IMG/VR virus record: IMGVR_UViG_3300025585_000039
Location: 1-64,000 of that record
Strand: one strand, 5' to 3'
Source: a virus
Length of the DNA stretch: 64,000 nt
The notes under the pieces were generated by a model that worked only from the letters and a program-made list of their open reading frames with translations, did no database searches and was not told the DNA's origin. Every line of letters begins with the position of its first letter. The first letter of the stretch is position 1. This document shows, one piece after another, positions 2,062 through 44,451 of this stretch. A program made the translations under genes and the position numbers.

Positions 2062-2613
2062 ATGGAAAAGCACATCAAAGAACTATTGTCCGAAGATGAC
2101 ATATTAAATTTGCGTAATCAAGCAAATCAAATTAAAGAAACATCTGCCGTTAAACGCTGGGAAGAGTTTGCTAAAGAGCCAGAACCTGAATTTACAGATA
2201 CCCACAAAATAATTCATAACGTTAGTTTAGGTAAGATCACATTGGAACTTGAAGTGCCAGATCATGTCAAGGATAAGATTATTAGTATTGCCAACGAAGA
2301 AGGGCTTGATGTCAGGTTTATTCGTGCTGGATATACTGAGTATGCCCCAGAATATGGAAGACCACACCTTGTTGAACATGAAGACAAGGCAGATATTTTT
2401 ATGGTTGATTATCAACTTAGTGGAAATACCTCTTGGCCAATAATTGTTAATGGTAATACTTATGAATTAAAAGATAACGAAGCAATAGCATTTTATCCTG
2501 CTAGGGTTAAGCATTCTAGACCAGAAAAAAAGTTTGAACCAGGAACACACATAGCGATGATCTTTTTTGATACAGAAATTTTAGGAAATTTAACAAACAC
2601 ATCAGGAGAGTAG
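2062..2613 (+). CDS. 2OG/Fe(II)-dependent oxygenase (DYQL subfamily)
   Basis: A 183-aa protein that aligns by eye with four other proteins in the window through H-x-D, then about 11 residues and a (D/N)YQL motif, an N-x-x-W, a DN-A segment and a distal H-x-R followed by MIFF. Here the motifs read HED, VDYQL, NTSW, DNEAIAF, HSRP and AMIFF. The Fe(II) ligands are probably the HED His and Asp and the distal His, and the Arg should bind 2-oxoglutarate. The substrate is unknown. A TATAAT at 2049-2054 places the leaderless start at 2062 rather than the ATG inside the -10 box. The gene is followed after 4 nt by a flavin monooxygenase-like gene. Confidence 0.7.
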   Translation: MEKHIKELLSEDDILNLRNQANQIKETSAVKRWEEFAKEPEPEFTDTHKIIHNVSLGKITLELEVPDHVKDKIISIANEEGLDVRFIRAGYTEYAPEYGRPHLVEHEDKADIFMVDYQLSGNTSWPIIVNGNTYELKDNEAIAFYPARVKHSRPEKKFEPGTHIAMIFFDTEILGNLTNTSGE

Positions 2614-2617
2614 TCTA

Positions 2618-3439
2618 GTGGCATACAAATTCCATTGGATGCATAGAAATAATTGGCCCAATACCAAAAAAGGCTTAAGGGATATGTTCATGTTTTTAGA
2701 AAACAGGAATATAGTATCTGTACTATTGCCATATGGTCCATACGGAACAGATTTTTTATTACATTTATCAGATATATTTGAGCATACCGTCAAAATTAAA
2801 ATAATGATTGCTTTGCCTGCTTATGGTATGTCTCCAGAATATGCCATGAAAACGTTTGTAACTGCACAAAGATGGGGTAAACACAGATTAGATCTTAATC
2901 TTATTAGTGGCAACTATAGAGGCGAAATAGAACAAAAGGTTATTAGAGATTATCCATGGGATGTAGAATTGATTAATAGCCACGAAAAGCGTGTTGCATT
3001 AACAGAAAGATGGATGAAAAAATTTAAAGTGCTTTTGGAAGAACATAAAAAATTGGGCGTAGAAGATGAATTTAGGACTGTGCTATATGTGGTTGGAGCA
3101 TCTGATACCACAATCAGGACAGCAAATGAGTATGCAGACTATATCATAATTAATGATCGCATGCTTACTGAAGAAACAATGTCTAGAATCAAAGCCAAGT
3201 TACTTTTTGTTATAGATCCTTTAATTCTTGATGAAGGGCAAGACCCTGAAAGTATTGAATATCATGATTATGCATTTAGAAAACATGATAAACACCCAAT
3301 TAAAGGTACGCATGAGCAAGTCGTAAAACAATTAAAAGATATTGCAGAAAAATGGGGTATTCAAGAGTTTCTTATCCACACAGACCAAGTAGACCTTACT
3401 AAGATATGGAGACTTGTAGAAGAAATGCAAAAGGCTTGA
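2618..3439 (+). CDS. luciferase-like (LLM) flavin-dependent monooxygenase family protein
   Basis: A 273-aa protein with a TIM-barrel-like pattern matching bacterial luciferase-like enzymes: MIALPAYGMSPEYAMKTF, then RLDLNLISGNYRGE, TERWMKKFKVLL, GASDTTIRTANEYADYII, and a C-terminal GTHEQVVKQLKDIAEKWGIQEFLI. The usual FMNH2/O2 role (alkanesulfonate, alkane or amine oxidation) is established for the family. The substrate here is unknown. The start is GTG at 2618 with an AGGAGAG ribosome site at 2604-2610. Coupling with the upstream oxygenase suggests a two-step oxidation. Confidence 0.6.
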   Translation: MAYKFHWMHRNNWPNTKKGLRDMFMFLENRNIVSVLLPYGPYGTDFLLHLSDIFEHTVKIKIMIALPAYGMSPEYAMKTFVTAQRWGKHRLDLNLISGNYRGEIEQKVIRDYPWDVELINSHEKRVALTERWMKKFKVLLEEHKKLGVEDEFRTVLYVVGASDTTIRTANEYADYIIINDRMLTEETMSRIKAKLLFVIDPLILDEGQDPESIEYHDYAFRKHDKHPIKGTHEQVVKQLKDIAEKWGIQEFLIHTDQVDLTKIWRLVEEMQKA

Positions 3440-3465
3440 CATTGTAGATTAGTATGGTATATACT
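3436..3465 (+). promoter_or_regulatory. leaderless promoter for small-gene operon
   Basis: TTGACA (3436-3441) overlaps the stop of the preceding gene. An 18-nt spacer, TATACT (3460-3465), 6 nt and the ATG at 3472 follow. It heads the block of small genes that runs to about 6118. Confidence 0.7.
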
Positions 3466-3471
3466 AAAACT

Positions 3472-3630
3472 ATGGAAATATTAGCAATGCCTAGATGGAA
3501 ATCTAAAATATTAAATACCGTTGCCTGGATGCTAGGCATGCGTGGAGAATATGTGTATTGCATCACAATGAATGTCGATCTTAATGATCCAGAGCAAGCA
3601 AAAGAGTTATTAAAAAATGAGCGCAGATAA
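3472..3630 (+). CDS. 52-aa hypothetical protein
   Basis: It starts at the leaderless ATG 6 nt after TATACT and is first in an operon of small overlapping genes. It is basic at the N-terminus (MPRWKSK) and acidic toward the C-terminus. The last 14 nt overlap the next gene. No family is recognised. The promoter geometry is the main support. Confidence 0.5.
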   Translation: MEILAMPRWKSKILNTVAWMLGMRGEYVYCITMNVDLNDPEQAKELLKNERR

Positions 3631-6497: not shown

Positions 6498-7154
6498 ATG
6501 GATAAGATTTATCTTTTATTTTCTGCTACTCCTCGTTCTGGCAATACTTTTTTGAGTAGATGTTTAAGTACCGCCATTGAGTTAAATCCAAAATCAATAG
6601 ATATGAGAGTTTCATCACACTTACATAGCCCAGCAATTTTGGCTTTTGATCAAACTGATGAAGTGAAGACCTATACACTATTTAGAAATCCAGAAGATAC
6701 TGTGATATCTTCAACAATTCATAAAATTTTTTTTCAGAAGGGTCCAGATTATAGTTTTACTGGAGATATGTCGTCAGTGTATTACAATATTAATAGGGCT
6801 GTAAATGAATATATGGAGTTTTTAGAATTTCAAAACAAGCACAATAAAGCAACTGTAATCATGTTTGATAAATTAAAATCTGATCCAAACTCTGTTATTA
6901 AACAAATATTTGATGATTGTAATGCTGCATATGTAAATGAAATTTCTGCAGACAATATCATGCAGGGAATTCAAAATGAAGATAAAAAATTATATACTTC
7001 TGGAACTGGTGATTTTTCTAAAGCACCTTATCATACTCCACACAATATTGAAAAGAATCCAATATATGATAGATTAAAAAAGGAACTTCCTTATATTACT
7101 ATTTATCAAAATTTAAAATCTTTATATGATGAAATGGTTAAGAAATATGGATAA
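6498..7154 (+). CDS. PAPS-dependent sulfotransferase-like protein, copy 1
   Basis: A 218-aa protein with the two hallmark motifs of cytosolic-type sulfotransferases: the 5'-phosphosulfate loop ATPRSGNTFLS (residues 10-20) and the 3'-phosphate motif FRNPEDTVIS (62-71). Such enzymes move sulfonate from PAPS to hydroxyl or amine groups. The acceptor is unknown. The leaderless start follows TGA-TACACT by 6 nt. A second sulfotransferase-like gene overlaps its 3' end and a third lies at 10594. An APS-kinase-like enzyme that could supply PAPS is at 21312-22073. Confidence 0.75.
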   Translation: MDKIYLLFSATPRSGNTFLSRCLSTAIELNPKSIDMRVSSHLHSPAILAFDQTDEVKTYTLFRNPEDTVISSTIHKIFFQKGPDYSFTGDMSSVYYNINRAVNEYMEFLEFQNKHNKATVIMFDKLKSDPNSVIKQIFDDCNAAYVNEISADNIMQGIQNEDKKLYTSGTGDFSKAPYHTPHNIEKNPIYDRLKKELPYITIYQNLKSLYDEMVKKYG

Positions 7155-7704
7155 AACATTAGTTTTTACTCCACCAAGAACTGGAAGGAATTTACTGCAT
7201 ATAGGATTTTTATATTGTACCAAAGTATCTTTACAAACTAATAATTCAGAACCAAATTTAAATTTATCACCATACAATTTAGTATTTAGTATTGCTAGAG
7301 ATCCCAAAGATTCTGTTGCATCGCTATCGACAATGATTAAAGAAAAGCCAGATGTTTCACTAATGCAAGATATTCAATCAGCAACCAATCATTATAATAG
7401 TTTTATGGAAACAATTAAAAACAACGATGTAGTTATTTATAAGTATGATGATCTAGTTAATAAAACAAAAATAGTTTTTTACGATGTTGCAAAAAAAATG
7501 AATGTTGATATAGAAAGAGAATATGATAGCAATAACATTTTAGAAAAGGTAATGGAATTTGATAATAATAATCCATTTGGATATAAAAAATCTTTTGTTG
7601 GTTCGCCACGATATTTGGAAGTAATGAAAAATATTGATGAAATAGATTTTACAATGTCTTATAGTTTATACAATGATGCAATTTCACGCTCAGTAAAACT
7701 ATAG
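7147..7704 (+). CDS. PAPS-dependent sulfotransferase-like protein, copy 2
   Basis: A 185-aa protein with the loop TPPRTGRNLL (residues 8-17) and the 3'-phosphate motif IARDPKDSVASL (49-60). It is shorter than typical sulfotransferases (about 250-300 aa), so it is a compact version. ATG 7147 overlaps the end of copy 1; another ATG 21 nt upstream is possible. Divergence between the copies suggests different acceptors. Confidence 0.7.
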   Translation: MDKTLVFTPPRTGRNLLHIGFLYCTKVSLQTNNSEPNLNLSPYNLVFSIARDPKDSVASLSTMIKEKPDVSLMQDIQSATNHYNSFMETIKNNDVVIYKYDDLVNKTKIVFYDVAKKMNVDIEREYDSNNILEKVMEFDNNNPFGYKKSFVGSPRYLEVMKNIDEIDFTMSYSLYNDAISRSVKL

Positions 7705-9001: not shown

Positions 9002-9004
9002 CAA

Positions 9005-9926: not shown

Positions 9927-10592
9927 ATGCATCCATTAACACCAGATTGGTATAGACCAAGATCAGAACTAAAAAAGATAGATAATATCAGTGCAATCAT
10001 AGGTACTGGGGTAGACAACATTAAAGTAATAGAAAATTTCATTTCCGATGAAGAATGTGCTACAGCAATGAAAATTATTTCTAATCTTCCAGTCAATTTT
10101 GAAGCAACACACTCATACCCAATTCATACACACAAAGATTATCGTGGACCATATGAAAATGAAAAAGCATTTGGCATTATGATGGGTAAAAGGATGGTTG
10201 AAACTGCTGAAAAATTATATGGACTTACATTAGTCCGTGATCAAATGTTTTTATATATAGTTCATCCAAAAGGTACATATATTGATCCTCATACAGATAT
10301 CTTAGATATTGATAATCCAGATTATGAAAATGATACATATGAATCACAATTAGAACGTTTTCCATATTTATGGAGCGGTCACTTATCAATACTTACTTAT
10401 TTAAATGATGAATATGAGGGTGGAGAATTATATTTTCCAGAATTAGATTATGCTATTAGACCTAAAAAGGGAATGATTATTACGTTCCCTGGAAATTTAC
10501 ACTATGTTCATGGTGTGGCACCAATTACTGAGGGCGTTAGATATACATTATCTCAATGGTCAAAGTTTGTAGATTTTAAACCAAGGGGATAA
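9927..10592 (+). CDS. prolyl-4-hydroxylase-like 2OG/Fe(II) oxygenase
   Basis: A 221-aa protein with the family core: HTD (in DPHTDILD, about residues 117-119), LSILTYLNDEYEGGELYFP, KKGMIITFP, the distal His in HYVHGV and the Arg in GVRYTL. Fe(II) is held by His-x-Asp...His and 2-oxoglutarate by the Arg. The family hydroxylates prolines or other side chains, with an unknown target here. It heads a short operon with a sulfotransferase and a methyltransferase, which suggests that all three act on one substrate. Confidence 0.85.
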   Translation: MHPLTPDWYRPRSELKKIDNISAIIGTGVDNIKVIENFISDEECATAMKIISNLPVNFEATHSYPIHTHKDYRGPYENEKAFGIMMGKRMVETAEKLYGLTLVRDQMFLYIVHPKGTYIDPHTDILDIDNPDYENDTYESQLERFPYLWSGHLSILTYLNDEYEGGELYFPELDYAIRPKKGMIITFPGNLHYVHGVAPITEGVRYTLSQWSKFVDFKPRG

Positions 10593-14009: not shown

Positions 14010-14711
14010 ATGGATCAACAACGACTAGAACAGGCTGCTCAAGGTTTTACAGTAGACCAACAAGGTAACAAGTATAGTTTTACATCCCCTATCCCTGGAG
14101 TTCATATTTATGATAATGTTTGGGAAAACTCTATGGACTTTTTCAATTCACTATTGGATAAGGAGTTTTGGGATAAGCATGAAGGTAATAAGAATTATAG
14201 AAAATGGGTTAGAGAAGATTTCTTTGACAATCAGGAATATACTAGAGAAAATGGAAAACAAGCAGACACTTGCTGGATACATACATACCCAGAAGCAAAT
14301 GATGCACTCAGAGGCGTTATTGATTCATACTGCTTTCATTGGAATCTAGATCCAAAGAGTCGTGAAAGTTTACGCATTACAAGATATTCAAATGGAGAAT
14401 GGTTTGGTGCACATTCTGATGATACATATGCAACACCAAGAACAATATCTTTAGTTTATTATCCAAACGATGACTACGAAGGTGGAGAATTAGAGTTTAT
14501 TCACTTTGGAGTAACAGTTAAACCAAAGGCTGGTCAACTATTTCTTTTCCCATCTGCTTATTCTTATGAGCATAAGATTCATGAAATCACTGGTGGAAAT
14601 CCAAGATGGACTGTTGTATCGTTCTTGTATTTTGGAGATGAAAAAGAAGCCAATATGAGACGAGAAGGCCTAGAATTTCCATACAAACCAATCTTTAAAT
14701 CATTGTTTTAA
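14010..14711 (+). CDS. prolyl-4-hydroxylase-like 2OG/Fe(II) oxygenase
   Basis: A 233-aa protein with HSD (in WFGAHSDDTYA, about residue 136), SLVYYPNDDYEGGELEF, KAGQLFLFPS, the distal His in YEHKIHE and the Arg in NPRWTVVSF. This is a complete 2OG oxygenase set. The TGA-TATAAT at 13983-13988 is followed by a leader with GAAAGG, so this gene is leadered. It stands alone between Hsp20 and a bidirectional terminator. Confidence 0.85.
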   Translation: MDQQRLEQAAQGFTVDQQGNKYSFTSPIPGVHIYDNVWENSMDFFNSLLDKEFWDKHEGNKNYRKWVREDFFDNQEYTRENGKQADTCWIHTYPEANDALRGVIDSYCFHWNLDPKSRESLRITRYSNGEWFGAHSDDTYATPRTISLVYYPNDDYEGGELEFIHFGVTVKPKAGQLFLFPSAYSYEHKIHEITGGNPRWTVVSFLYFGDEKEANMRREGLEFPYKPIFKSLF

Positions 14712-15281: not shown

Positions 15282-16195
15282 AACCAACCTCGTTTTTCTA
15301 TTTCTTTCTGGAACTTTGCAGCCCAGTATTCATTTACAAGAGTACCTGCGTGACCATCTCTTCTATTTAGATCAAACTTTTCAATCTTGCCATCTGGTCT
15401 TTTCTCTCTAATAAAGTCTAGCAACTCTTCATCTGATATGTCAATATAGTTTGAAGATAGATCTGCAAACTTATAGTTTACATTTTCTTGATAATCCCAT
15501 GAACCCCATAACAACTTAGTGCCCATTGACTCACAAAACTTTTCAAATAATTTCCAACTAATTGCAAAATCTATAAAGCATTTACGATGCTCAAGAAGTG
15601 TAAAAGGCTTTTCAATCAATAAGAAATCTGGAACCTTAGATTCATCTAGTTGGTCAGTGCTTACTCCGCCACCATTTGGGTATCTCTGTACATATACATA
15701 CTTTTCATTTTCTTGATCCCAGTCATAGAATCTACCTAAGTTTGGTAATAAAACAAACATATACTCTGGAGCACCATATTTTTCAATATAAATCATGTAT
15801 GTGGTTATAACCTTTTGCCATCCATATCCAGATTTGCCAATGCTATAAAAACCGTTATTAGTATTATTCTTCTTATTAAGATTATTTAATAAAACTTTTG
15901 TCCATACCGTTTCCTGTGGCGCACCAACACCTTCAGTTTGAGAACAACCAGCAAACAAAATATGCTTTTCATTTGAATGGTCTGCGGTAAAGTTATCACA
16001 TCTAAAAAAATCATCATTGTAGTTATAATCTACTGTGCCATCATCATCTGCAATCTCAATTGGAATTCTTGTCCAATGTCTTTGTGTAGTTAAAATACCG
16101 TTCATCTTACCCCAAGTCGCATCGAACTTGTTGTAAAATACGTCATCTATTCCACCATCAAGACTTCTTAAAACAAAAGGATCTGTCTTCTTCAC
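15278..16195 (-). CDS. SGNH-hydrolase-like protein, copy 1
   Basis: A 305-aa protein with block I as FAGCSQTEGVG (about residues 82-92; GCS replaces GDS, Ser kept), a mid-block Gly (GKSGYGW), an N-containing block (LLPNLGRFYD) and a C-terminal D-x-H (RRDGHAG, about 282). The paralogue at 38739 shares the same blocks. SGNH enzymes deacetylate or acylate glycans and lipids. Here it lies in the accessory operon with oxygenases. Confidence 0.65.
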   Translation of the reverse strand: MKKTDPFVLRSLDGGIDDVFYNKFDATWGKMNGILTTQRHWTRIPIEIADDDGTVDYNYNDDFFRCDNFTADHSNEKHILFAGCSQTEGVGAPQETVWTKVLLNNLNKKNNTNNGFYSIGKSGYGWQKVITTYMIYIEKYGAPEYMFVLLPNLGRFYDWDQENEKYVYVQRYPNGGGVSTDQLDESKVPDFLLIEKPFTLLEHRKCFIDFAISWKLFEKFCESMGTKLLWGSWDYQENVNYKFADLSSNYIDISDEELLDFIREKRPDGKIEKFDLNRRDGHAGTLVNEYWAAKFQKEIEKRGWL

Positions 16196-16704
16196 TCTAA
16201 TACCTCTCCTACTGGTTGGCTATATATAGTTAATGGTCGTTCATCAAAGTATGCAAGAAGAACACCAGTCTTATTATTGTTAATGTCGGGGTTTGTGTTT
16301 CTCCAATGCTCTAGTTTGCCTGAATTAAAAGCAACACCAGAGTTTGGTGGGAAAACATATTCTTTATCTTCTACCATGATTCCCCATGGCAAATTTTCAT
16401 ATAGACACACATCCAAAAGACATACAGTTGGATTTAAATCAACGTGCTTCCCAAGAACACCTTGATGTCCTTCGTAATGTGCAAATGTTGTTTTAGTAGA
16501 AGAAAGATTTGGATTGTCAAATAGTTCTCTTGCCAATGGTAAAAGTTCTTGTCCAAACATTTGTAGCACTGGATTATTGATACTATCAAACATAGTTCTT
16601 TGTTGTTTGTTTACACCAGAATGAGACAGTAGTCGTTTACAGTATGAAACAACTTCCTCAAACCTATCAAGTGTAAAAACACCATGTACTATTTTTGGAT
16701 CCAT
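16192..16704 (-). CDS. compact 2OG/Fe(II) oxygenase-like protein
   Basis: A 170-aa protein with HVD (GKHVDLNP, about residue 87), PWGIMVEDKEY, NSGVAF, and the distal HWRN followed by VLLAYF. The strand order matches the DYQL subfamily elsewhere in the window, in a shorter form. The leaderless start is TGA-TAGAAT (complement of 16711-16719), 6 nt, ATG. The stop makes an ATGA overlap with the SGNH gene. Confidence 0.65.
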   Translation of the reverse strand: MDPKIVHGVFTLDRFEEVVSYCKRLLSHSGVNKQQRTMFDSINNPVLQMFGQELLPLARELFDNPNLSSTKTTFAHYEGHQGVLGKHVDLNPTVCLLDVCLYENLPWGIMVEDKEYVFPPNSGVAFNSGKLEHWRNTNPDINNNKTGVLLAYFDERPLTIYSQPVGEVLE

Positions 16705-19819: not shown

Positions 19820-20479
19820 CTATAACCTATTCCCATGCCAATAATCCCAACCATGAAGATCTATGAATTCTTTTTGGAAGTTTTCTTGGTATGCGCTTTC
19901 TGTTAGTTTCTTTATTTCTTTTGTCATTCCATAATCATCTTGTTTTCCATCATGGAAATGAAAAAATATCATATCTACATATTCATCATCTTTTAATATT
20001 GTAGGCTTTCTCCAGTGTACCTCATACGATGGTTTAAAAACTAGTGCATCGTTATCTTCTAAAGAATACTCTTTATTTTCTACAACCAATTTCCACTCAA
20101 CATTAGATTCTAGTTGATAGTCAATAGTAAATGTAGAATGACCAGTGTCATAATGTGGTGCAAGTCGTGGAGTTCCATATTTAGGCGAGTATCTTGTAAA
20201 AGCATAACCATCTGGTTTTAGATCTTCACCATAATTATCTCTAGCATATTTTTCTATCTTATCGGCAATCCTTTTTGGAATTCTATCAGTAGCAACAAAC
20301 AGGGCACGTCCAGACCATTCCTGTGCTAAGACCTTATCTGTTGGTCTACCTTCTTTTGCAATAGTTTCAAGCGGTATGGTTACTGGCTCCATAGAATTAA
20401 AAAATCCATACATTGCTTCTTTGAGTTCTGCAATCTCATCATCTGTAAAGAATGCTTTAAGTTGATGGCTCTTTGTCAT
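19820..20479 (-). CDS. 2OG/Fe(II) oxygenase (DYQL subfamily)
   Basis: A 219-aa protein with HYD (APHYDTGHS, about residue 107), TIDYQLESNVEW, DNDALVF, the distal HWRKP and VDMIFFHF. It is closest by eye to the members at 42839 and 43915. Upstream it overlaps the DUF2061 gene by an ATGA junction. The substrate is unknown. Confidence 0.8.
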   Translation of the reverse strand: MTKSHQLKAFFTDDEIAELKEAMYGFFNSMEPVTIPLETIAKEGRPTDKVLAQEWSGRALFVATDRIPKRIADKIEKYARDNYGEDLKPDGYAFTRYSPKYGTPRLAPHYDTGHSTFTIDYQLESNVEWKLVVENKEYSLEDNDALVFKPSYEVHWRKPTILKDDEYVDMIFFHFHDGKQDDYGMTKEIKKLTESAYQENFQKEFIDLHGWDYWHGNRL

Positions 20480-20679: not shown

Positions 20680-20756
20680 GATGGCCACTCCATATCATTT
20701 GGTCTTGTGATAATATCCCAGATCTTCGATAAAACCTTTTTAAGTTTTGTAATCAT
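20676..20756 (-). CDS. 26-aa basic peptide
   Basis: A coupled mini-frame (MITKLKKVLSKIWDIITRPN and six more) with ATGA joins on both sides. The N-terminal half is an amphipathic, basic helix. It could be a membrane-active peptide or a translational bridge. Confidence 0.45.
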   Translation of the reverse strand: MITKLKKVLSKIWDIITRPNDMEWPS

Positions 20757-21310
20757 GAGATATACCTATTAGGAATAATGTCTACCAATAAATGAATGCG
20801 ATGCAACGGACTCTTGTTAACCACAGAGTGAATCTTAGCATTATTTATTTCCCAACATTCTCCTTCTTTCATTGTAACTGTTTTTTCATCTACAGTAAAA
20901 AAGACATTCTGATTTGTTATGATTGGTATATGGTGTCTGCGAGAATGCATAAGGTAGTCACCACTATCACTATGTGGATGAATGTCTCCAAATCCTTTTA
21001 GTTTAATTAGAAGGCATTGTCCAACTTTACCATCATGTAATATCTCTAAATCCCTTACAATTGGATCAACAAGACTCATAATGTTGTCATCAAAACATAA
21101 TTGTTGACCTTGGTATGGCGTATTAATACCCCACCCCAAAGGGTGAGTATATAAAAAAAATGACTCTGTAAATCTGTGTGTATATTCGCTGCGCTGCCTG
21201 CTTGTATTAATTTGCCATTCTGAATTAAATTTTTCAACAATAGACCGCAATTGAGAAACGTCAAATTGTTTGTGCATTGTTATGCTAAATTCTTCGTCCC
21301 TCTTGTACAT
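20753..21310 (-). CDS. aspartyl/asparaginyl beta-hydroxylase-like oxygenase
   Basis: A 185-aa protein. A cupin-type core is visible: HPHSD (about residue 118), HHIPIITNQNVFF, GECWEINNAKIHSV with the distal His, and HRIHLLVDI with the 2OG-binding Arg. The H..D..H..R order fits Fe(II)/2OG beta-hydroxylases of the AspH family, which hydroxylate Asp or Asn. It lies 1 nt downstream of the APS-kinase fusion. Confidence 0.75.
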   Translation of the reverse strand: MYKRDEEFSITMHKQFDVSQLRSIVEKFNSEWQINTSRQRSEYTHRFTESFFLYTHPLGWGINTPYQGQQLCFDDNIMSLVDPIVRDLEILHDGKVGQCLLIKLKGFGDIHPHSDSGDYLMHSRRHHIPIITNQNVFFTVDEKTVTMKEGECWEINNAKIHSVVNKSPLHRIHLLVDIIPNRYIS

Positions 21311-23620: not shown

Positions 23621-25045
23621 TTACCTGATAATTTTTGTATTATAGGTCTTTTCCCACTCTATTATATCACTCTCATCATTTAGTAGTGGTTGGCCTTTAA
23701 TATTTAAACTGGTATTTAATAATATAGGAACACCAGTTGCCTTATAAAATTTTTCTAAAACAGCATACAATCCAGGATGCTGTTCTTTAGTTACTGTCTG
23801 AACCCTAGATGTGCCATCAATATGCACCACAGAAGGTATTAAATCTGGCTTTAAACATCTTGGGGTATATTGCATATATGGGGATTCATACTTCATGTCA
23901 AACCATTCTGAGGCGTGTTCTGCCATTATTACGGGGGCAAAAGGTCTAAACAATTCACGCTTCTTAATAAGATTTACCTTGTCTTTAATATTTGGATCTC
24001 TTGGATCAGCAAGGATACTTCTATTTCCTAATGCCCTTGGACCAAACTCTGCTCTACCGCTTGCTACTGCAGCAATTTGATTTGTCATAATCTCATTAAA
24101 GATAGCATCAACTGGATACTTTCCTGGAATATTATATCCAAGATATGGTCCTTCCCATTTTACATGTTTTGCACGAAGAGCAAGGGCAGCACCCAAAGAA
24201 CTACCAGCATCTCCAGGATTTGGCATGATCCAAACGTCATCAAAAATATCCCAAAGCATTGTATTGGCTGAAGCATTTAATGCACAACCACCCATAAAAA
24301 CCAAATTCTTATATTCTGGTAATAGTTCTCCTCGAACCATTATCATAAACTCCCACAATCTTTCTTCATACACCTTTTGAACTGAAGCAGCAATATCAAA
24401 CTTATCTTGATCAGTCAAGATGTGGTATGGCCAATCTTTAATTCCTTGATGGTAATTATATTTTTGTGTTTTAATATCAGGGAAGTAGGACCAAACCTCT
24501 TTGTAATATGTGTCTGGATTTCCATACCCTGCCATACCCATTAGAATATATTCTTCTTGATTTGGCATTAAACCTATCAGTTGTGTAAATGCAGAATAGA
24601 ATAAACCGAAACTTAATGGATATTTTATTTCTTTAACAAGTTTGATATCCTCTCCATCTCCTACCCAAACAGTAGACGTAGAAAATTCTCCAATAGCATC
24701 TAAAACAACAATTGCTGCTTTGTCAAATGGACTTGTATAATATCCTGCACAAGCATGGGTGTAGTGATGCTTAAATGATATATCAAACTTATGTTTTGGC
24801 TTCCAATCTGCAGCACCACCACGTAAAACCAATCTTAACTTTTTAAGTCCAGGCTTTTCATAGTATGCAATTTCATCTGGAGTTCCTCCGTATCGCTCTG
24901 CATCTTTCCATAACTCATTATTGGTATACCAATCATTTTTAATCTTGCTATATCTTTCTGCGTGTCCAGCAAATAAAATAGAACTATTTTTAATTACAGC
25001 AAGTGCAGCATCGTGAGATGTCTCATTGAATCCAAATATTTTCAT
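23621..25045 (-). CDS. NodU/TobZ-type carbamoyltransferase
   Basis: A 474-aa protein with Kae1-like ATPase features at the N-terminus (FNETSHDAALAVI; KHHYTHACAGYY with the metal-binding His pair; VVLDAIGEFSTST) and the C-terminal carbamoyltransferase domain (GRAEFGPRALGNRSILADPR; LLNTSLNIKGQP). The family transfers carbamoyl from carbamoyl phosphate to hydroxyls of sugars or antibiotics via carbamoyl-AMP. It is somewhat short (typical about 550 aa) but has both ends. It is adjacent to two P4H-like genes and a glycosyltransferase, so carbamoylation of a sugar or hydroxyl made by those enzymes is plausible. Confidence 0.85.
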   Translation of the reverse strand: MKIFGFNETSHDAALAVIKNSSILFAGHAERYSKIKNDWYTNNELWKDAERYGGTPDEIAYYEKPGLKKLRLVLRGGAADWKPKHKFDISFKHHYTHACAGYYTSPFDKAAIVVLDAIGEFSTSTVWVGDGEDIKLVKEIKYPLSFGLFYSAFTQLIGLMPNQEEYILMGMAGYGNPDTYYKEVWSYFPDIKTQKYNYHQGIKDWPYHILTDQDKFDIAASVQKVYEERLWEFMIMVRGELLPEYKNLVFMGGCALNASANTMLWDIFDDVWIMPNPGDAGSSLGAALALRAKHVKWEGPYLGYNIPGKYPVDAIFNEIMTNQIAAVASGRAEFGPRALGNRSILADPRDPNIKDKVNLIKKRELFRPFAPVIMAEHASEWFDMKYESPYMQYTPRCLKPDLIPSVVHIDGTSRVQTVTKEQHPGLYAVLEKFYKATGVPILLNTSLNIKGQPLLNDESDIIEWEKTYNTKIIR

Positions 25046-25710
25046 TATTCTTGTCCAGTGGAATCTCTTTTAGCAGAAAGGGGAACATTGTGATACCAAT
25101 TTGGTAACGCATATCTTGGACCTTTTGTAACTGGATGAACTTCATGAACATACAAAAAGTTAGATGGGAAGAACAAAACGCTTCCTGGATCTGGTTTAAT
25201 TACAAGGTCTGAATGTCTAAACTCTATCTCTCCGCCCTCATAGTCATCATTGAGATAAAGCAATACAGATAAAACTCTTGTACTAATTCCTTGATCTTGA
25301 TGAGCAGGAAGGTGTCCAGTTTTTTCATACTTCAATAAATGCATTGTATGTTCTCTAGACTTAATGTTCTTTTCTGCAAATGGATATAAGTCTTTTGTAT
25401 AGTGATCAAGCGTTATATCTAATGCACCAAATAGTTCTGAAGAAATAAACTTTTGTTCTTCACCATATATATCATTTGCTGGAATGTCTTTGACTTGTGG
25501 AATAAACTTCTGCATGTTAAACGTCAGCATGCTTTCACCCTCGCCATATGTCCAAGGAACCCATGGCTTTACGGATGTTTGATTTGGTCCAGGCTTATCA
25601 GTAAGCCATCTATTCTCAAGTTCTTCAACAGCATCAATAATCTTTTGTGGTTCTTTAATTACATTTGTATAATAAACTAAACCAAGATCTAAAACTTCAT
25701 AATCAAACAT
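25045..25710 (-). CDS. prolyl-4-hydroxylase-like 2OG/Fe(II) oxygenase
   Basis: A 221-aa protein with HQD (PAHQDQGIS, about residue 136), LSVLLYLNDDYEGGEIEF, PGSVLFFPS, the distal His in YVHEVHPV, and GPRYALP. All ligands are present. The ATG at 25710 overlaps the previous stop region by 8 nt; a longer frame from 25779 overlaps the neighbour heavily and was rejected. It is paired with a second, related oxygenase upstream. Confidence 0.85.
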   Translation of the reverse strand: MFDYEVLDLGLVYYTNVIKEPQKIIDAVEELENRWLTDKPGPNQTSVKPWVPWTYGEGESMLTFNMQKFIPQVKDIPANDIYGEEQKFISSELFGALDITLDHYTKDLYPFAEKNIKSREHTMHLLKYEKTGHLPAHQDQGISTRVLSVLLYLNDDYEGGEIEFRHSDLVIKPDPGSVLFFPSNFLYVHEVHPVTKGPRYALPNWYHNVPLSAKRDSTGQE

Positions 25711-26353
25711 GGTTAAGTCCATATTCTCTTGCAAGCCACTTTGGTCTTTGGCCTGGGAATAGGAACTCTGGATCTGCATTTTGTGGCAAACTAGTATGCA
25801 TATACAGTGCCGTATATCTATTGCCCTTAGTTACCGTTGTAATACCATGTACATATTCTGTTCCAGCACTTGGGAAAAATACCGCCGAATATTTCTTAGG
25901 AGCATAAACAACATTTTGGTTTGGAAAATAAATTCTTCCACCTTCAAAATCATCGTTAAGATACATAACGGTACTCCACTCAATCCATGGTTCTGGGCCT
26001 TGTGCATCAATGTGTAGGTCTCCCTTTTTACCTTCTGCCCACCAAGATCCAAACCCTTTGAATACATATATATCATGCATATACCCATTGAGTCTTCTGT
26101 GGTCTTCGTTTGCTTTCTGTCCATACTTAACAAGTACTTCCATAACTTGCTTGTTATAAGGAAGAGAAGTTCCTCCAAATCTTTTCTTATAATAATCTGG
26201 ATAATCATTAACCTCAGAAGGATTTTGCATTTCTCTAACTAAGAGATCTGCATCTTCTGGTGTAATGTAATTTTCTATAACATGAATTCTATGGCCATAG
26301 GTTTCTGGTCCGTGTGCCTCTAAATAGTTTTCTGGATTTGCTACTTCGATCAT
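25703..26353 (-). CDS. prolyl-4-hydroxylase-like 2OG/Fe(II) oxygenase
   Basis: A 216-aa protein with HID (DLHIDAQGP, about residue 117), STVMYLNDDFEGGRIYFP, SAVFFPS, EYVHGI and GNRYTALY. The start ATG 26353 has AGAGGAGA upstream, and a TGG-TATAAT promoter lies just 5' of that, inside the end of the glycosyltransferase gap. The internal promoter lets this pair be expressed apart from the upstream genes. Confidence 0.85.
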   Translation of the reverse strand: MIEVANPENYLEAHGPETYGHRIHVIENYITPEDADLLVREMQNPSEVNDYPDYYKKRFGGTSLPYNKQVMEVLVKYGQKANEDHRRLNGYMHDIYVFKGFGSWWAEGKKGDLHIDAQGPEPWIEWSTVMYLNDDFEGGRIYFPNQNVVYAPKKYSAVFFPSAGTEYVHGITTVTKGNRYTALYMHTSLPQNADPEFLFPGQRPKWLAREYGLNHV

Positions 26354-26378
26354 TTTTTCTCCTCTTATTATTATACCA

Positions 26379-27248
26379 CTAGTGAACTGCTTTGGTGGTA
26401 GCAGTATATCTTCTAGCATCAATTTGATTAAAATTTAATTTTTCTGGATCATATTGAACATCATTAGTTTCAAATGGTAGTGGTTCTAAACTTTTGAAAT
26501 CAAAGTTGTGTCTTGTGCAGAAATCATCTACCGTTAAGTCCCTGCCAAGAATTGATCCACAGCAATTAATACCAGTCCTTAGCATTGTGATTGCTTCATT
26601 GTAATTATGATTTATTGAAAATGGTACGTACAGTGTTTCCATAGTTGGCTTACCAGCAAGAGTATAAAAATCTGTGGGCATTGCAAAAACTGGAATACCC
26701 CTTGTAAATAAATCTAGGGATAGGACTTCTTCCACACCATTATATTTTATATAACTTGGATAGTTAAGATTAGACATTGTTTTCTTATCACCAAATATTA
26801 GATCCCTATCAATAAAATCTGTTTGAACAATTTCAGAAGTTTCAATTTTTTCTTTTTGTATATAGAATACATTCTTTGCGGATATAGCAACTTGGTGATT
26901 ACCAGAAATTATCTGATTTGGCTTACACGCCTCAATTAGTTTTACATCCCAATCCTTAGACAACATAACATTGTCCGACAACAACATAAAATATTTTGAT
27001 TTGGACCACATTGCATTTGATGCTCTTAGGGCTGAATGATTTGTAATCCAATCCCAGAATAGGTGCTTATATCCAACACCCATTTTTTCAAAGGTATCTT
27101 TTCTATCTAGTGGATGTTGATCATATATACCTATACCAATTGAATGTTTCTTACTTGAATTATCTATAATCTGTTGAATAACATCTTTAAGATGTTTACC
27201 CTTATAAGAATAAATAAAAATATTTATGTCTACATTATTCATCGTCAT
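26379..27248 (-). CDS. GT60-like glycosyltransferase (GlcNAc-transferase family fold)
   Basis: A 289-aa protein with a GT-A layout resembling PF11397/GT60 (Skp1 hydroxyproline GlcNAc-transferase family): HSALRASNAMW (71-81), the D-x-x-x-x-L-x-x-DWD region (SDNVMLSKDWD, 91-101), a late EEVLSLDLFTRGIPVFAMP (173-191), and a GRDLTVDDF segment near the C-terminus. The DSH/DxD-type metal motif reads SDN. In eukaryotes this family glycosylates hydroxyproline. Here it is directly upstream of two P4H-like genes. The assignment is by motif order, without a search. Confidence 0.6.
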   Translation of the reverse strand: MTMNNVDINIFIYSYKGKHLKDVIQQIIDNSSKKHSIGIGIYDQHPLDRKDTFEKMGVGYKHLFWDWITNHSALRASNAMWSKSKYFMLLSDNVMLSKDWDVKLIEACKPNQIISGNHQVAISAKNVFYIQKEKIETSEIVQTDFIDRDLIFGDKKTMSNLNYPSYIKYNGVEEVLSLDLFTRGIPVFAMPTDFYTLAGKPTMETLYVPFSINHNYNEAITMLRTGINCCGSILGRDLTVDDFCTRHNFDFKSLEPLPFETNDVQYDPEKLNFNQIDARRYTATTKAVH

Positions 27249-32968: not shown

Positions 32969-32969
32969 T

Positions 32970-33176: not shown

Positions 33177-33178
33177 AT

Positions 33179-35212: not shown

Positions 35213-35264
35213 TTGCCTTCCCCCTTGCAGACGAATGTCTGATAGGATGATTATACCATTTTAT

Positions 35265-35300
35265 TGCAAAAAAAGAGGGCCAGTATATAACTGACCCTCT
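35265..35300 (-). terminator. intrinsic terminator of S-layer-like gene
   Basis: On the minus strand AGAGGGTCAGT, a TATAT loop, and ACTGGCCCTCT form an 11-bp stem with one G-U pair, followed by TTTTTTT. The G-U pair favours the minus orientation. It separates the gene at 35315 from the next promoter (TGG-TATAAT upstream of 35212). Confidence 0.9.
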
Positions 35301-35314
35301 AATTTATAAGTTAA

Positions 35315-38219: not shown

Positions 38220-38742
38220 TAACCACCGTAATCACTTCATTTTCTTTTGCAATAGCAGATAACCTACGCATAATATCATCACGAACCTCTGGATACTCAG
38301 ATGCAATATCTTTTAGAATTCCAACAAGGATTTCCTGTCGTCTTTCAATCTCAACCATTTCTTCTGCAAGTTCCTTATTTTCAAGTAGTCCTGCTTTTTG
38401 TAGCATATCAATACGCTTAGATTCGATATCCATAACAAGTTTAATGGCTGCGGTTTTTGCTCCAAGATTATTAGTCATAGACGCTTCATCAATAACTTCA
38501 TATGATTTTGTTATCAATTTACTATAATGTGCATCAGCACCTACCAATGCTTCTTTTGCTCTTGCTCTGATGACAGCATTATCAGAAGCCATTTGCTTCC
38601 ATTCATCAATGTACGCAACTACCCGTGTGCGTGGAATAGCCAAGTCTTTAGAAATTTGTGTTGGATCATTTCCCTTTAGGTACTCAGAAACTACATCATT
38701 GACTTGATCTAAATGCTTGACCAGATCTTCTTCTGCTGTCAC
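38206..38742 (-). CDS. putative terminase small subunit
   Basis: A 178-aa protein with a helix-turn-helix (PTQISKDLAIPRTRVVAYIDEW, about 27-48) and a long helical region, placed directly before terL. Size and position fit a DNA-recognition small terminase. Confidence 0.7.
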   Translation of the reverse strand: MTAEEDLVKHLDQVNDVVSEYLKGNDPTQISKDLAIPRTRVVAYIDEWKQMASDNAVIRARAKEALVGADAHYSKLITKSYEVIDEASMTNNLGAKTAAIKLVMDIESKRIDMLQKAGLLENKELAEEMVEIERRQEILVGILKDIASEYPEVRDDIMRRLSAIAKENEVITVVNGVQ

Positions 38743-39518
38743 TTTGAACTCTTTTCCATATATCTATTATACATTATTTCGGCCCATACCGTGTGGTATC
38801 CATTTCCATAATGATGGCCATCTCTAGCATTCATTGCATATTCATCATCTGGATTTTCTATTACATATTTGGCAACCATGTCATCGTCTAGAATATTGAC
38901 ATAACAGTTTAAATCTTGATAATGATTAAAATTAGAACGAGGTGCCCATGTGCCATAAATTAAATTAATATTATTTGACTTACAATATCTTTCTAGCATA
39001 AAAATATATTGATATTCTATTAATGGAATCGTATGCCAGAGTTCTTCTGAGATTTCTTCTGGCTCATGAATATTAACATAAATATGTTTTTGTATTGTTG
39101 TATCAAATGAAAGGAATCTTCTTGATACTGGGAAATTAATAAAGATTACATTTGGTTTGCCAAATGATTCAATATATTTATAAATATTAAAAACAATAGC
39201 AAGAATGCCTAATCCAGGTGCACCTATATTAAAAAATCCAGAAGTATTTTCTTTGTGATGAATTTTGTCATAAAGTCTTTTTGCCCAAATCTCATGCTCT
39301 TCTAAACCATCCCCAAAAGTATTAGAGCATCCAGCAAACAAAATATGAAGTCCAGCATGCTCTGTAGTAAAATCATCTGACCTATATTTATGTTTATTTA
39401 ATCTAATTTTGGGATCATGTAGATATGGGTGTGCCTGTATTTTGGGAAAGTCTTTCTTGAAGGGGAAGGCTATTACTCTGTAGACAGAACCACTATCGGT
39501 ATCAAAAATATCAGGCAT
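38739..39518 (-). CDS. SGNH-hydrolase-like protein, copy 2
   Basis: A 259-aa protein, paralogous to 15278-16195: FAGCSNTFGDGLEE (block I, about 57), NIGAPGLGI, NFPVSRRFLSFD and RDGHHYGNGYH at the C-terminus. The catalytic Ser and the C-terminal D-x-H are kept. It sits between terminase and DNA metabolism genes and is coupled at both ends, which is unusual for a glycan enzyme. Confidence 0.65.
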   Translation of the reverse strand: MPDIFDTDSGSVYRVIAFPFKKDFPKIQAHPYLHDPKIRLNKHKYRSDDFTTEHAGLHILFAGCSNTFGDGLEEHEIWAKRLYDKIHHKENTSGFFNIGAPGLGILAIVFNIYKYIESFGKPNVIFINFPVSRRFLSFDTTIQKHIYVNIHEPEEISEELWHTIPLIEYQYIFMLERYCKSNNINLIYGTWAPRSNFNHYQDLNCYVNILDDDMVAKYVIENPDDEYAMNARDGHHYGNGYHTVWAEIMYNRYMEKSSK

Positions 39519-40640: not shown

Positions 40641-40912
40641 TTGCTATTTCCCTTAATCTGTTTTAAAGCCTTTAGTACTTCATTTGGATTAACGCTACAC
40701 TTAATGCATAGTGGGTCATCATTATATATAGATAGCGGTGACCCACATGACTTGCATTTACGATCCTTGCCTTTTCTTTTTTGTCTTCTTGTAATGAGGT
40801 AACGCTGCGCTATTTTTTGTTTTGTAGCAGCAGCCCTACACTCATCTGAGCAATATACCTGATAGGTTATTGCTGTAAAGAATTCAGTATCACACCAGTT
40901 ACAATGCTTCAT
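40637..40912 (-). CDS. double zinc-finger protein
   Basis: A 91-aa basic protein: CNWCDTEFF and CSDECR at the N-terminus, a Lys/Arg-rich linker, and CKSCG...CIKC at the C-terminus, giving two zinc sites. It is common in actinophages beside RuvC or Cas4-like genes and probably binds DNA. Confidence 0.7.
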   Translation of the reverse strand: MKHCNWCDTEFFTAITYQVYCSDECRAAATKQKIAQRYLITRRQKRKGKDRKCKSCGSPLSIYNDDPLCIKCSVNPNEVLKALKQIKGNSK

Positions 40913-41750
40913 TCCCTAACAACTCCAGAGGTTTAATTTTAACTACCCCTGTTTCGGCCTCAGCGCATGCCTTCTGAATCGGACATACCTTGCAAATTTT
41001 TGAGTTTGCACGATATGTTTTTTGTGGAAGTTCTTTGTTCTCCCAAGACTTCCGAACCGTTCTCATCCAATCAAACGCTTGGTCTACCCACCTGCGGTAA
41101 TGATCACTTACTTGAACAGGAATAACCATTAGTTCATGATTATTTTTATTCTCGTAAATCAAAGCACCCAAATCCTTTTTAAGTATCTTCATATACATAA
41201 TAAGTTGCATTAGGTGTCCATCTTTTGGTTTTCTACTTGCTTTCTTGTATTCAAAGCCTTCGTTTGGCATTGTTTTAATTTCACCAAGAATAGTATTGCC
41301 ATTATAGTTCAACATCGCATCCCCGTAACCAGAAATAGGTGGATCTTGATATTTAATTCTAAACTCAAGAGCAGGGTGTTTCTGTGTCTTGTATTTGCTT
41401 GGCTCTGGATCAAACTCCATCGTTTCATCTAAAAGACCAGCATCCATAATAGCATCTTGAATTCTGTCATGACTGAGTGTTCCGCTTGTTCTATTGGCTA
41501 CACCATATGCATCTGCATTATCATGAAAGATTGCTCCCTCAAATGCTAAATACCAATACCTTGCACATTCGCCAGCACCATAAGTTAGTGTTGACGGAGC
41601 AAAGGTTGTCTTCTTTTGAAAACGTGGCTTAATTTTTGCAGTATAGCCAGAATTGATTGCATCAACTAGCCCTTCTGTAAAGTCTGTATCGGAACTTGTT
41701 TTCTTAGGTTCTGATTTAATCATTACTTGTTTTAATAGATTTTTTGTCAT
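40899..41750 (-). CDS. Cas4-like PD-(D/E)XK exonuclease
   Basis: A 283-aa protein. The first cluster Cys lies in GAGECARYWYLA (about 62), the active site in GYGDAMLNY and ILGEIKTMP (D...ExK), and the C-terminal CKVCPIQKAC supplies further Cys. This is the Cas4/AddB-type 4Fe-4S nuclease pattern. Likely roles are recombination or end processing with RecA. Confidence 0.8.
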   Translation of the reverse strand: MTKNLLKQVMIKSEPKKTSSDTDFTEGLVDAINSGYTAKIKPRFQKKTTFAPSTLTYGAGECARYWYLAFEGAIFHDNADAYGVANRTSGTLSHDRIQDAIMDAGLLDETMEFDPEPSKYKTQKHPALEFRIKYQDPPISGYGDAMLNYNGNTILGEIKTMPNEGFEYKKASRKPKDGHLMQLIMYMKILKKDLGALIYENKNNHELMVIPVQVSDHYRRWVDQAFDWMRTVRKSWENKELPQKTYRANSKICKVCPIQKACAEAETGVVKIKPLELLGNEAL

Positions 41751-41755: not shown

Positions 41756-42070
41756 TTATCGAGTAATATATTTAAGAGCAGAAACCAAATCATTAATTGA
41801 TTCGGCTGCTGTATAATAAATATTCTTTTTTGCTCTATCTCCTTTATCTACATTAGTCATCCATGTTGCTTTAAAAGCCATTTTTGCTGCGATAGCCTGT
41901 AACCTTACTATCTCAATTGTAGCAGTATTGATTGGGATATCTGGTTTAATAATTAACTTAGCAATAAAGGTTAGGGCTGTAGTTAATTCTTCGTCTTCCA
42001 TAAACTCTGCAACTTCTGCAAGTCCATTCACCATCTCAAGGGTGGTCTTACTTGGTGCTTCAATTGTCAT
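41756..42070 (-). CDS. hypothetical helical protein
   Basis: A 104-aa mostly helical protein (EVAEFMEDEELTTALTFIAK). It is frequent in actinophage replication regions and has no assigned role. Its start overlaps the oxygenase stop by 1 nt. Confidence 0.65.
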   Translation of the reverse strand: MTIEAPSKTTLEMVNGLAEVAEFMEDEELTTALTFIAKLIIKPDIPINTATIEIVRLQAIAAKMAFKATWMTNVDKGDRAKKNIYYTAAESINDLVSALKYITR

Positions 42071-42855
42071 TACATTGACCTCATATCTATTCCATCTAAC
42101 ATGCCTTCGTCATTCCATAACTTAAATGCTGCCATCATATCTGGCCGTGATTGTAGTTCATCTAAATACTTTTTGCGTTCTTGTGGTGATTTCTCTGGAT
42201 CAATAGGATTATCTTCACCAGTAAATCTATAATTATCTGTAGGGCAATAATCCATACTAATAATTTCACAAAATTCATCATTTTTAAATTTACGTTTTGG
42301 TCTCCAATGTATTTGATTAACTGCACTGAAGACAATCGTTTGTCCAGGAGTCAACGTATACTTGGTAAAGTTGCTCGTATCATTCCAATTGCCAACATAA
42401 AGATCCCATTCAATATTTGAATCTAGGCAATAATTCACTGTAATTAAATTTTCATCTGCATCTAGATGTGGTGGTAGGGATGGATTATTATCTCCGTAAC
42501 CCCACTTGCGATTATAATCAATATAGTTGTAGTGGCATAATGCAACGTCTCCGTTATAAAGAGGCTTTGCAATACTGTCCAAGGTATCTTCACAGTCTTT
42601 GGGCATATCAAATTCAATTAGCATTCTAGACATGTTTCTTGCAATCTTTGGCTGATACCGACTTCTGAAATCAGATGTTCGAATGTAGCCATCTTCAATT
42701 CTATCCCCAATAACAAATGGCTCAATCTTTCGATTTTCTTCAATTAGATTTCTTAAACTATTTACCTGCTCAACAGAAAAAAGATTATCTACATAGAATG
42801 GCAAGGGCCTATTGTATTTGTCAAATCCAGTAAGGTAATCATGCAGTTTTCTCAT
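42070..42855 (-). CDS. 2OG/Fe(II) oxygenase (DYQL subfamily, divergent)
   Basis: A 261-aa protein with HLD (PPHLDADENL, about residue 126), TVNYCLDSNIEWDL, PGQTIVFSAVNQIHWRP and EIISMDY. The YCL variant and longer N-terminus set it apart from its neighbours. ATG 42855 with GAGGG upstream was chosen. It is the first of three oxygenases in a replication operon. Confidence 0.8.
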   Translation of the reverse strand: MRKLHDYLTGFDKYNRPLPFYVDNLFSVEQVNSLRNLIEENRKIEPFVIGDRIEDGYIRTSDFRSRYQPKIARNMSRMLIEFDMPKDCEDTLDSIAKPLYNGDVALCHYNYIDYNRKWGYGDNNPSLPPHLDADENLITVNYCLDSNIEWDLYVGNWNDTSNFTKYTLTPGQTIVFSAVNQIHWRPKRKFKNDEFCEIISMDYCPTDNYRFTGEDNPIDPEKSPQERKKYLDELQSRPDMMAAFKLWNDEGMLDGIDMRSM

Positions 42856-43447
42856 TCGAGAACCCTCCGTTTGCAAAATACCAATCCTTGTACAATTTTG
42901 CTTTTGCATCTACAAACTTCTTTGTAGCCTCATCTTTTGGTGGCAATGTTGGATCTGTGAAATGACAGAATATCATTTCTACATATTGGTCATCGGAGAA
43001 TTCTTTTGGTTCTCTCCAATGAATTTGATGTGTACCAGAAAATGTTGCTGCCTGATTATTTAATAGAGGTAGTGCTCTATGCTCAACGACAATGTTCCAG
43101 TCAACGTTTCCATCTAGTTGATAGTCAAACGTGAATTTGGATTCTTTGAAAGTTTCATCATAATGTGGGAATAATGATGGACGGAACTTTACCCCATCCT
43201 TTTCAGTATTCTTGTATATTGCATGACAGTATTCAGTCAAAACAATATTTTCATTGCCACTGATAACTATTGCATAATGTGTTAATTTATCTACAATATT
43301 CTGTGGGAGTTGTATAAAATTATTTAATTGACAGTGTGGAGCCACAAATGCGGAGCCAGTGCTTGCAACAACGGACTCCTTTATCTGACCAATCTCTTCT
43401 TCTGTAAAAACATTATCTACTACTACATTTGGTATATCGTATCTCAT
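42839..43447 (-). CDS. 2OG/Fe(II) oxygenase (DYQL subfamily)
   Basis: A 202-aa protein with HYD (FPHYDETFK, about residue 98), TFDYQLDGNVDWN, NQAATFSGTHQIHWREP and VEMIFCHF. It closely matches the product of 19820. The ribosome site AGGAGA is 5 nt before the ATG. It overlaps the next oxygenase by 17 nt. Confidence 0.82.
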   Translation of the reverse strand: MRYDIPNVVVDNVFTEEEIGQIKESVVASTGSAFVAPHCQLNNFIQLPQNIVDKLTHYAIVISGNENIVLTEYCHAIYKNTEKDGVKFRPSLFPHYDETFKESKFTFDYQLDGNVDWNIVVEHRALPLLNNQAATFSGTHQIHWREPKEFSDDQYVEMIFCHFTDPTLPPKDEATKKFVDAKAKLYKDWYFANGGFSNEKTA

Positions 43448-43470
43448 TTTTTCTCCTAGTTACTACTCTA

Positions 43471-43755
43471 TTATACAGCATCAATCAGTTGTTCTAACAT
43501 CTCTAATTCTATAATTGCTAGTCTTACCTTTGCATTACCCTCGCCCAGCACCACAAAAATTGCTGGATCATTACCATTCCGAATCGCATCAGTAACGGCC
43601 TTGGCCCAATTATCTTTATTTACTGTAAATCCTTTTGGGTATTCTTTAAAATCTACAGTAAAGTTATGCCATGTGGCATCACCTTTTTTAGTATTTCTGC
43701 CAGAGTTTTTATGTGGCTTGGCACCAATTCTTTTACTCTCCGTCTGTTCGCTCAT
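43471..43755 (-). CDS. putative nuclease or resolvase-like small protein
   Basis: A 94-aa protein with an N-terminal basic part, then FTVDFKEYPKGF and a helix-strand pair (DPAIFVVLGEGNAKVRLAII). The V-D-F-K followed by AIFVVL recalls half of a PD-(D/E)XK fold such as phage resolvases, but the pattern is weak. The start at 43755 overlaps the zinc-finger gene. Confidence 0.45.
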   Translation of the reverse strand: MSEQTESKRIGAKPHKNSGRNTKKGDATWHNFTVDFKEYPKGFTVNKDNWAKAVTDAIRNGNDPAIFVVLGEGNAKVRLAIIELEMLEQLIDAV

Positions 43756-43915
43756 AATCCTTTTTCTTTCTTTTTGCAAAAGAAACTTTGCTCAAATGCT
43801 TTTCTTTGCACATCCAAGTTGCCTCTTTTGTATCAGCATAGAGTCTTAATGTTGGTACTTCCATCTTGCATGTGTGGCATACAAACTTGCCAGAATAAAC
43901 TGTATAGGATGCCAC
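43733..43915 (-). CDS. zinc-finger protein
   Basis: A 60-aa protein with CHTCKMEVPTLRLYADTKEAT and a MCKEKHLS segment (CxxC plus C-x3-H), then a very basic stretch (FAKRKKKDY). A C2HC-like metal site suggests DNA or RNA binding. It is coupled to the upstream oxygenase by a 1-nt overlap. Confidence 0.65.
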   Translation of the reverse strand: MASYTVYSGKFVCHTCKMEVPTLRLYADTKEATWMCKEKHLSKVSFAKRKKKDYERTDGE

Positions 43916-44451
43916 TAAGCACCTGAACCAAATCTAAAAAATACCATCTTAAGAAATTCACCCTCTGCAAAAGTTTTGTCTACCCTAGAGTGCAACTGTC
44001 TTACTGGATCCATTACTAGCGCATCATTATCTCCTAAAGTATAAATTTCATCATCTATACATAAATCCCAACTGGTATTTGATTCTAGTTGATAATTAAT
44101 CATCAAGGATGAATCTCCGCCATCCTTGTGTGATCTTAAAACTGGCCTACCATATTTTCCAGAATACTCTACCGCCATAATTCCATGAGCCTTTATGGAA
44201 TGATGATTAGTGCCATCTAAGTCATCTGCTATTTTTTGAATAGAAGGCATAATAGATTTTGGTATATTTAATTGCTCAACATCTAAACGACCCATAAATT
44301 TATGCACTACAGTTTTAGTATTTTGTCCTTCTAGGTATCCTGGATCATCTAGGTATACTGTCTCACGAGAATTCTGCTCTCTTTCAATAAATGATTTTAA
44401 TAGAGCAACTTGTTCTTCTGATAAAACATTTCTTACAATATATGGTTTCAT
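43915..44451 (-). CDS. 2OG/Fe(II) oxygenase (DYQL subfamily)
   Basis: A 178-aa protein with HKD (RSHKDGGDSSL, about residue 110), MINYQLESNTSWDL, DNDALVMDPVRQLHSRV and LKMVFFRF. It has the full ligand set, with HSR at the distal site as in the gene at 2062. It shares a base with the recA start, placing it in the recombination operon. Confidence 0.8.
   Translation of the reverse strand: MKPYIVRNVLSEEQVALLKSFIEREQNSRETVYLDDPGYLEGQNTKTVVHKFMGRLDVEQLNIPKSIMPSIQKIADDLDGTNHHSIKAHGIMAVEYSGKYGRPVLRSHKDGGDSSLMINYQLESNTSWDLCIDDEIYTLGDNDALVMDPVRQLHSRVDKTFAEGEFLKMVFFRFGSGA

Follow-up and report, generated by a model that had tools for sequence, protein, structure and literature searches.

The window analysed here, a stretch of 64,000 bases corresponding to bases 1-64000 of the IMG/VR virus record IMGVR_UViG_3300025585_000039 (80,003 bases, of which the remainder was also read), harbors eleven genes with the H-x-D...H...R residue sets of Fe(II)/2-oxoglutarate (2OG) oxygenases (Table 1). 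A first-pass annotation of this DNA had listed the same eleven, and all of these open reading frames (ORFs) were found where it placed them, with their motifs present; the first begins at 2053, and an in-frame ATG follows at 2062. As that annotation also recognized, all are of the 2OG/Fe(II)-oxygenase type and comprise three subtypes, P4H-like, AspH-like and a compact group with a DYQL motif, which we name here the HWR family. The compact group has six members and not the five first counted, gene 16192 being included (genes are designated by their start positions). We give a probability of roughly 80% to the reading in which the eleven genes encode Fe(II)/2OG oxygenases of three subfamilies, the six HWR proteins share a family with phrog_2954, the 'ferrochelatase' of marine phages, and the reaction would be hydroxylation of peptide side chains.

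Table 1. Oxygenase genes of the window and the two genes bordering the HWR array (HMM, hidden Markov model).
Feature	Position	Strand	Motif	Evidence and remarks
HWR oxygenase	2053..2613	+	HED...H-S-R	Family HMM E 6e-42
P4H-like 2OG-Fe(II) oxygenase	9927..10592	+		PF13640 E 9e-10, phrog_61
P4H-like 2OG-Fe(II) oxygenase	14010..14711	+		PF13640 E 2e-13, phrog_61
HWR oxygenase, divergent	16192..16704	-	HVD...HWR	Family HMM E 9e-29; sixth compact-group member
HWR oxygenase	19820..20479	-	HYD...HWR	Family HMM; phrog_2954 E 1.4e-8
AspH-like oxygenase	20753..21310	-		PF05118 E 7e-14
P4H-like 2OG-Fe(II) oxygenase	25045..25779	-		PF13640 E 7e-18; adjoins NolO-like carbamoyltransferase gene (23621-25045)
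P4H-like 2OG-Fe(II) oxygenase	25703..26422	-		PF13640 E 2e-7; 77-base overlap with gene 25045
Cas4-like exonuclease, one array border	40899..41750	-		
HWR oxygenase, array gene	42070..42909	-	HLD...HWR	Family HMM, tree
HWR oxygenase, array gene, modelled	42839..43447	-	HYD...HWR	Family HMM, AlphaFold2 model
HWR oxygenase, array gene	43915..44451	-	HKD...H-S-R	Family HMM
UvsX-like recombinase, other array border	44451..45461	-		

When the 56 ORFs of 120-320 amino acids in the 80-kb record were scanned for the motif patterns, precisely these eleven emerged: L..HxD...HxR marked six of them, and HxD...H followed by an Arg about 10 residues later the other five. The former pattern occurred on average 0.04 times (maximum 1) in 500 residue shuffles, against six observed, and the latter 2.1 times (maximum 7), against five observed; consequently, the motif alone is significant only for the L..HxD...HxR class, and the other five genes rest on Pfam. 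Indeed, genes 9927, 14010, 25045 and 25703 exceeded the curated cut-off of PF13640, and 20753 scored 52.4 bits with PF05118 (cut-off 22.6). The HMM search proposed in the first-pass annotation assigned these five to families, whereas the six DYQL proteins had no family in either Pfam or NCBIfam. The remaining 16 kb of the record contained no extra DYQL member by the family HMM and no extra PF13640 member.

In the window, all six HWR proteins carry H-x-D and H-x-R, and one N and one W are invariant among them. Among 62 non-redundant phage members, the first His was conserved in 61, and the Asp, the distal His, the Arg two residues after it (H+2), a Tyr and the Trp in all 62; moreover, Y...HxD...HxR was kept in 207 of 207 fetched relatives. 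A search of PDB sequences with the family profile gave no match. The AlphaFold2 model of the 42839 protein, built with 54 aligned homologues, is a double-stranded beta-helix of high confidence (predicted local distance difference test, pLDDT, 95.6; predicted template modelling score, pTM, 0.90), and the 50 PDB matches listed for it were without exception 2OG oxygenases (probability 1.00, TM about 0.5-0.6), including 6n1f, OGFOD1, SnoN, AlkB-like proteins and PHD2. Models lacking a beta-helix or the Fe ligands, the outcome that the first-pass annotation had named as fatal, were not what we observed for the DYQL group, in which fold and triad are both present.

The usual Arg or Lys about 10 residues past the distal His has no counterpart in the HWR family, where no column after H-x-R reached 80% conservation among the 62 members. 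In the 42839 model, His143 and Arg145 lie on a single strand, and hence both should face the same side. In PHD2 the equivalent position is occupied by Val376, lining the 2OG pocket, with the usual Arg383 on the next strand. Since the H+2 Arg is invariant, nothing later is conserved and this position lines the pocket in PHD2, a relocated 2OG-binding Arg is the simplest reading, and the residue is a likely substitute for the usual Arg/Lys. Some accepted members of the superfamily bind the C5 carboxylate of 2OG from other positions; the missing Arg at the usual place marks a variant, not exclusion from the Fe(II)/2OG oxygenases. In such an active site, Fe(II) would be held by H-x-D and the distal His, and 2OG by the conserved Tyr together with the H+2 Arg, which, from the strand of the distal His, would replace the residue normally found further on; O2 and 2OG would then generate a ferryl species able to hydroxylate a side chain, presumably on peptides or flexible protein segments.

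Sequence comparison further places the DYQL/HWR group as homologous to phrog_2954, a relationship that is new here. Five of the six window proteins matched phrog_2954 in PHROG (E 1.4e-8 to 0.026; none reported for 2053), 16 'ferrochelatases' of cyano- and pelagiphages matched the window-family HMM (E 7e-9 to 1e-20), and the alignment of family against family by hhalign gave a probability of 98.6% (E 1e-15). H-x-D...W...HWR is present in 15 of those 16 proteins, the exception being that of S-RIM44, which retains HLD and HWR and has Tyr at the Trp position. An S-SM1 'Ferrochelatase' ranked seventh in a structure search of BFVD, and when the window HWR proteins were compared with isolated phages by tblastn, 19820 matched only S-SM1 and 42070 nothing. 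In cyanophage S-SM1, a tandem pair of these genes stands in one run together with genes annotated as 2OG-Fe(II) oxygenase, leprecan and DNA endonuclease V. A pelagiphage-type member modelled separately (pLDDT 95.5) had as its best PDB match the P4H of Pseudomonas putida (E 7e-9), followed by a Dictyostelium PHD.

The group has been treated as ferrochelatase in the literature (PMC3037559; PMC9599517; PMC11561400), and many cyano- and pelagiphage records carry that annotation; nevertheless, the notion that the six HWR proteins are ferrochelatase-like (haem) proteins, as the PHROG label implies, is contradicted by both sequence and fold and is barely credible. The ferrochelatase domain PF00762 was found in none of the twelve phage 'ferrochelatases' scanned, the HxD...H triad is conserved, and the matches listed for both models are 2OG oxygenases and include no chelatase. 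Considering the absent domain, the retained iron motif and the predicted prolyl-hydroxylase-like fold, phrog_2954 should be renamed; our literature search found no paper correcting the name. Among the proteins so annotated, that of ACG-2014f (362 amino acids, L121:686-1774) combines an HWR domain and a PF13640 domain, and the S-SCSM1 gene (L126:494-1694) has an HWR match and, after it, a P4H-like one; both look like two-domain fusions.

Three of the HWR genes form a short array between the Cas4-like and UvsX-like genes. Eighty close polymerase relatives were collected from IMG/VR (contigs up to 116 kb). Among 60 relatives with both borders, the site held no HWR copy in 28, one in 12, two in three, three in 12, four in one and five in four, counts that refer to contigs and not to independent phages, some loci being near-identical assemblies. 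The empty site has a steady length of 0.78-0.82 kb in 27 of the 28 contigs. Through the array, each phage has a particular set of 0-5 such enzymes, so several different substrates are likely. In thirteen longer relatives, PF13640 genes numbered 0-5 and HWR genes 0-6, with totals of up to eight, so the eleven of the window stand at the high end of a habit of the lineage. The first-pass annotation expected phages to have few such genes or none as a rule, which does not hold for these relatives or for cyanophages, S-SCSM1 having 24 2OG-Fe(II) oxygenases (PMC9602691); the number in the present phage is not unprecedented.

The same annotation had suggested expansion by duplication, for which recent branches within the phage clade would speak. 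Three DYQL genes packed between 42070 and 44451 would suit a recent event that left six partly redundant copies, but the other five window HWR proteins are only 20-37% identical to 19820, and the six are scattered in the tree, several pairing with genes of other phages: 42070 groups at 100/99 support with three orthologues that are up to 78% identical, 42839 with L048 and L079 (100/95 and 99/97), and 19820 with L027 (97/90). Recent duplication is therefore very improbable, the tree contradicting it for 42070, 42839 and 19820; as judged from these sequences, the HWR duplication is old and was followed by differential retention between phages.

In cyanophages, of which 14 of 16 genomes carry several, 2OG oxygenases have been proposed to act on the 2OG pool of the cell (PMC3037559), and the genes studied here might chiefly convert 2OG to succinate and so tune nitrogen signalling or energy. 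We regard this as improbable: six paralogues in one genome that have diverged yet keep their active sites intact, and that persist in many phages as separate orthologous lines, fit many substrates better than one bulk reaction, and the NtcA argument is cyanobacterial, whereas the core genes of the present phage are nearest to those of Streptomyces phages. Its DNA polymerase and terminase have their nearest counterparts (about 55% identity) in phages such as Samisti12, BillNye and StarPlatinum; the genus Samistivirus is placed in Stanwilliamsviridae.

Regarding substrates, the cellular relatives are informative. Sphingomonadales were chosen because one genome of that order carried a relative, and among 301 of their genomes the window-family profile gave seven matches. 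For four of the five best (G165, G243, G255 and G111), a lasso-peptide B2 gene is about 0.4-0.5 kb away. In these four loci (L386, L387, L389 and L390), a conserved, unannotated HWR-type oxygenase gene directly precedes a lasso-cyclase-like ORF of the same orientation, with 2-13 bases between them, and B2 is divergent. In these clusters B2 (NF033537) scored above its cut-off and the cyclase matches below their strict one; L386 also has PqqD-type chaperone-like and HprK-type kinase-like genes nearby, both below cut-offs, and similar ORFs occur in the other three loci. By our own arithmetic, about 0.003 adjacencies of the lasso kind would be expected by chance. Furthermore, B2 occurs near an HWR gene in Brevundimonas (L331), Legionella (L318) and a metagenome-assembled genome (MAG) of Erythrobacteraceae (L314). 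A search for a peptide motif conserved in the phrog_2954 branch yielded 46 cellular contigs, some of them probably of viral origin and binned into MAGs.

We infer peptide substrates from the lasso clusters in which the nearest cellular relatives found here lie, and from the prolyl hydroxylases among the nearest solved folds; peptide side-chain hydroxylation is accordingly our best guess for what the HWR family may do. Modification of nucleic acids, DNA or tRNA, by AlkB- or TET-like enzymes has some claims of its own, given the AlkB-family folds among the PDB matches of 42839 (3rzl, 3btz), the array adjoining UvsX, Cas4-like exonuclease and DNA polymerase genes, and weak Tet_JBP matches in two P4H-like proteins. 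We consider it unlikely, since those Tet_JBP matches are below the cut-off, the phrog_2954 member best matches prolyl hydroxylases and the cellular HWR kin sit in peptide clusters.

Several observations weigh against the reading set out here. No sequence-profile link was found to connect the HWR and P4H groups of the window (hhalign probability 0.3%), which are joined by fold only; within the window, direct evidence of fold concerns 42839, the other five HWR proteins following by homology, and 16192 and 2053 form long branches in the tree. The role of the H+2 Arg as a putative 2OG ligand is drawn from conservation and strand position. The lasso association comes from a single order, with four of its seven matches, and most phrog_2954-type members in Sphingomonadales are not beside lasso genes; a search of 399 genomes from across the phylum with the HWR profile gave no match, and cellular members near the phage branch are therefore rare. 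The phage HWR members themselves lie outside lasso clusters. A search of the 80-kb record for collagen-like G-x-y repeats, a possible substrate of prolyl hydroxylases, found none.

A wider picture, which we hold only tentatively and think somewhat less probable than its opposite, is that several lineages of aquatic phages possess exchangeable arrays of peptide hydroxylases, kin to the tailoring enzymes of lasso peptides and with an altered 2OG-binding site (Arg at H+2), that modify a set of host or phage peptides during infection, and that the widely reported 'haem' auxiliary gene of ocean viruses is the same enzyme. The 'ferrochelatase' has been reported as an auxiliary gene enriched in seasonal marine viruses, co-occurring with 2OG oxygenases and linked to iron and haem (PMC11561400; PMC9599517; PMC3037559). 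If these proteins are 2OG oxygenases, that co-occurrence is one superfamily beside its own kin, and the inference about haem no longer stands. In IMG/VR, a single pelagiphage member already has relatives on at least 600 pattern-matched stretches, so many annotations would be affected. The relatives in lasso clusters, in turn, supply a concrete and testable idea of the substrates.

Other genes of the window accompany the oxygenases. Just before the first HWR gene lies a complete cobalamin adenosyltransferase gene (1418-1987, +; PF01923 E 6e-52), and a luciferase-like monooxygenase-type protein is encoded at 2618-3439 (+; PF00296 below cut-off). The stretches 6498-7704 and 10594-11292 (+) hold a sulfotransferase-like gene (the one at 6498, which exceeds the PF00685 cut-off) and two P-loop proteins similar to it by eye. 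The P4H pair adjoins two adjacent phrog_7084 proteins (27235-28724, -), one with a weak DUF6065 match. Two SGNH/GDSL-hydrolase-like proteins (FAGCSxTxGxG) were recognized by eye at 15278-16195 and 38739-39518 (-). A full-length DUF885 protein (30920-32617, -; PF05960 E 2e-116, HESVPGHH motif) stands beside secreted-looking proteins (29919-36409, -), one of them with a PA14 domain (33179-34921).

Compared with known systems, the four P4H-like genes are ordinary members of the PF13640/phrog_61 phage oxygenases, with Arg about 10 residues past the distal His, and 20753 is a member of Asp_Arg_Hydrox (PF05118) whose PHROG matches are weak and unnamed. Proteins of phrog_2954 (T4-like GC 615) share with the window HWR members Y...L..HxD...W...HWR and a length of about 180-250 amino acids, and are often encoded beside annotated 2OG-Fe(II) oxygenases; the window members form a diverged branch in which DYQL-x-x-N replaces an HTDRPSCEIS-type motif and some have H-S-R, not H-W-R. 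The prolyl hydroxylase of P. putida (4iw3, 4j25) and PHD2-type enzymes are the best fold matches of the phrog_2954 member, at about 15% identity, and carry on the next strand the Arg that it has at H+2. CanE, an aspartyl beta-hydroxylase that acts on a linear lasso precursor (PMC9266682), is an Fe/2OG enzyme of a lasso cluster, as the sphingomonad HWR proteins are predicted to be. Finally, S-SCSM1 and the present phage both carry many diverse oxygenases in a single genome, although the former is a marine T4-like cyanophage of 229 kb, whereas the latter has Streptomyces-phage-like core genes and keeps HWR arrays at a fixed recombinase-exonuclease site.

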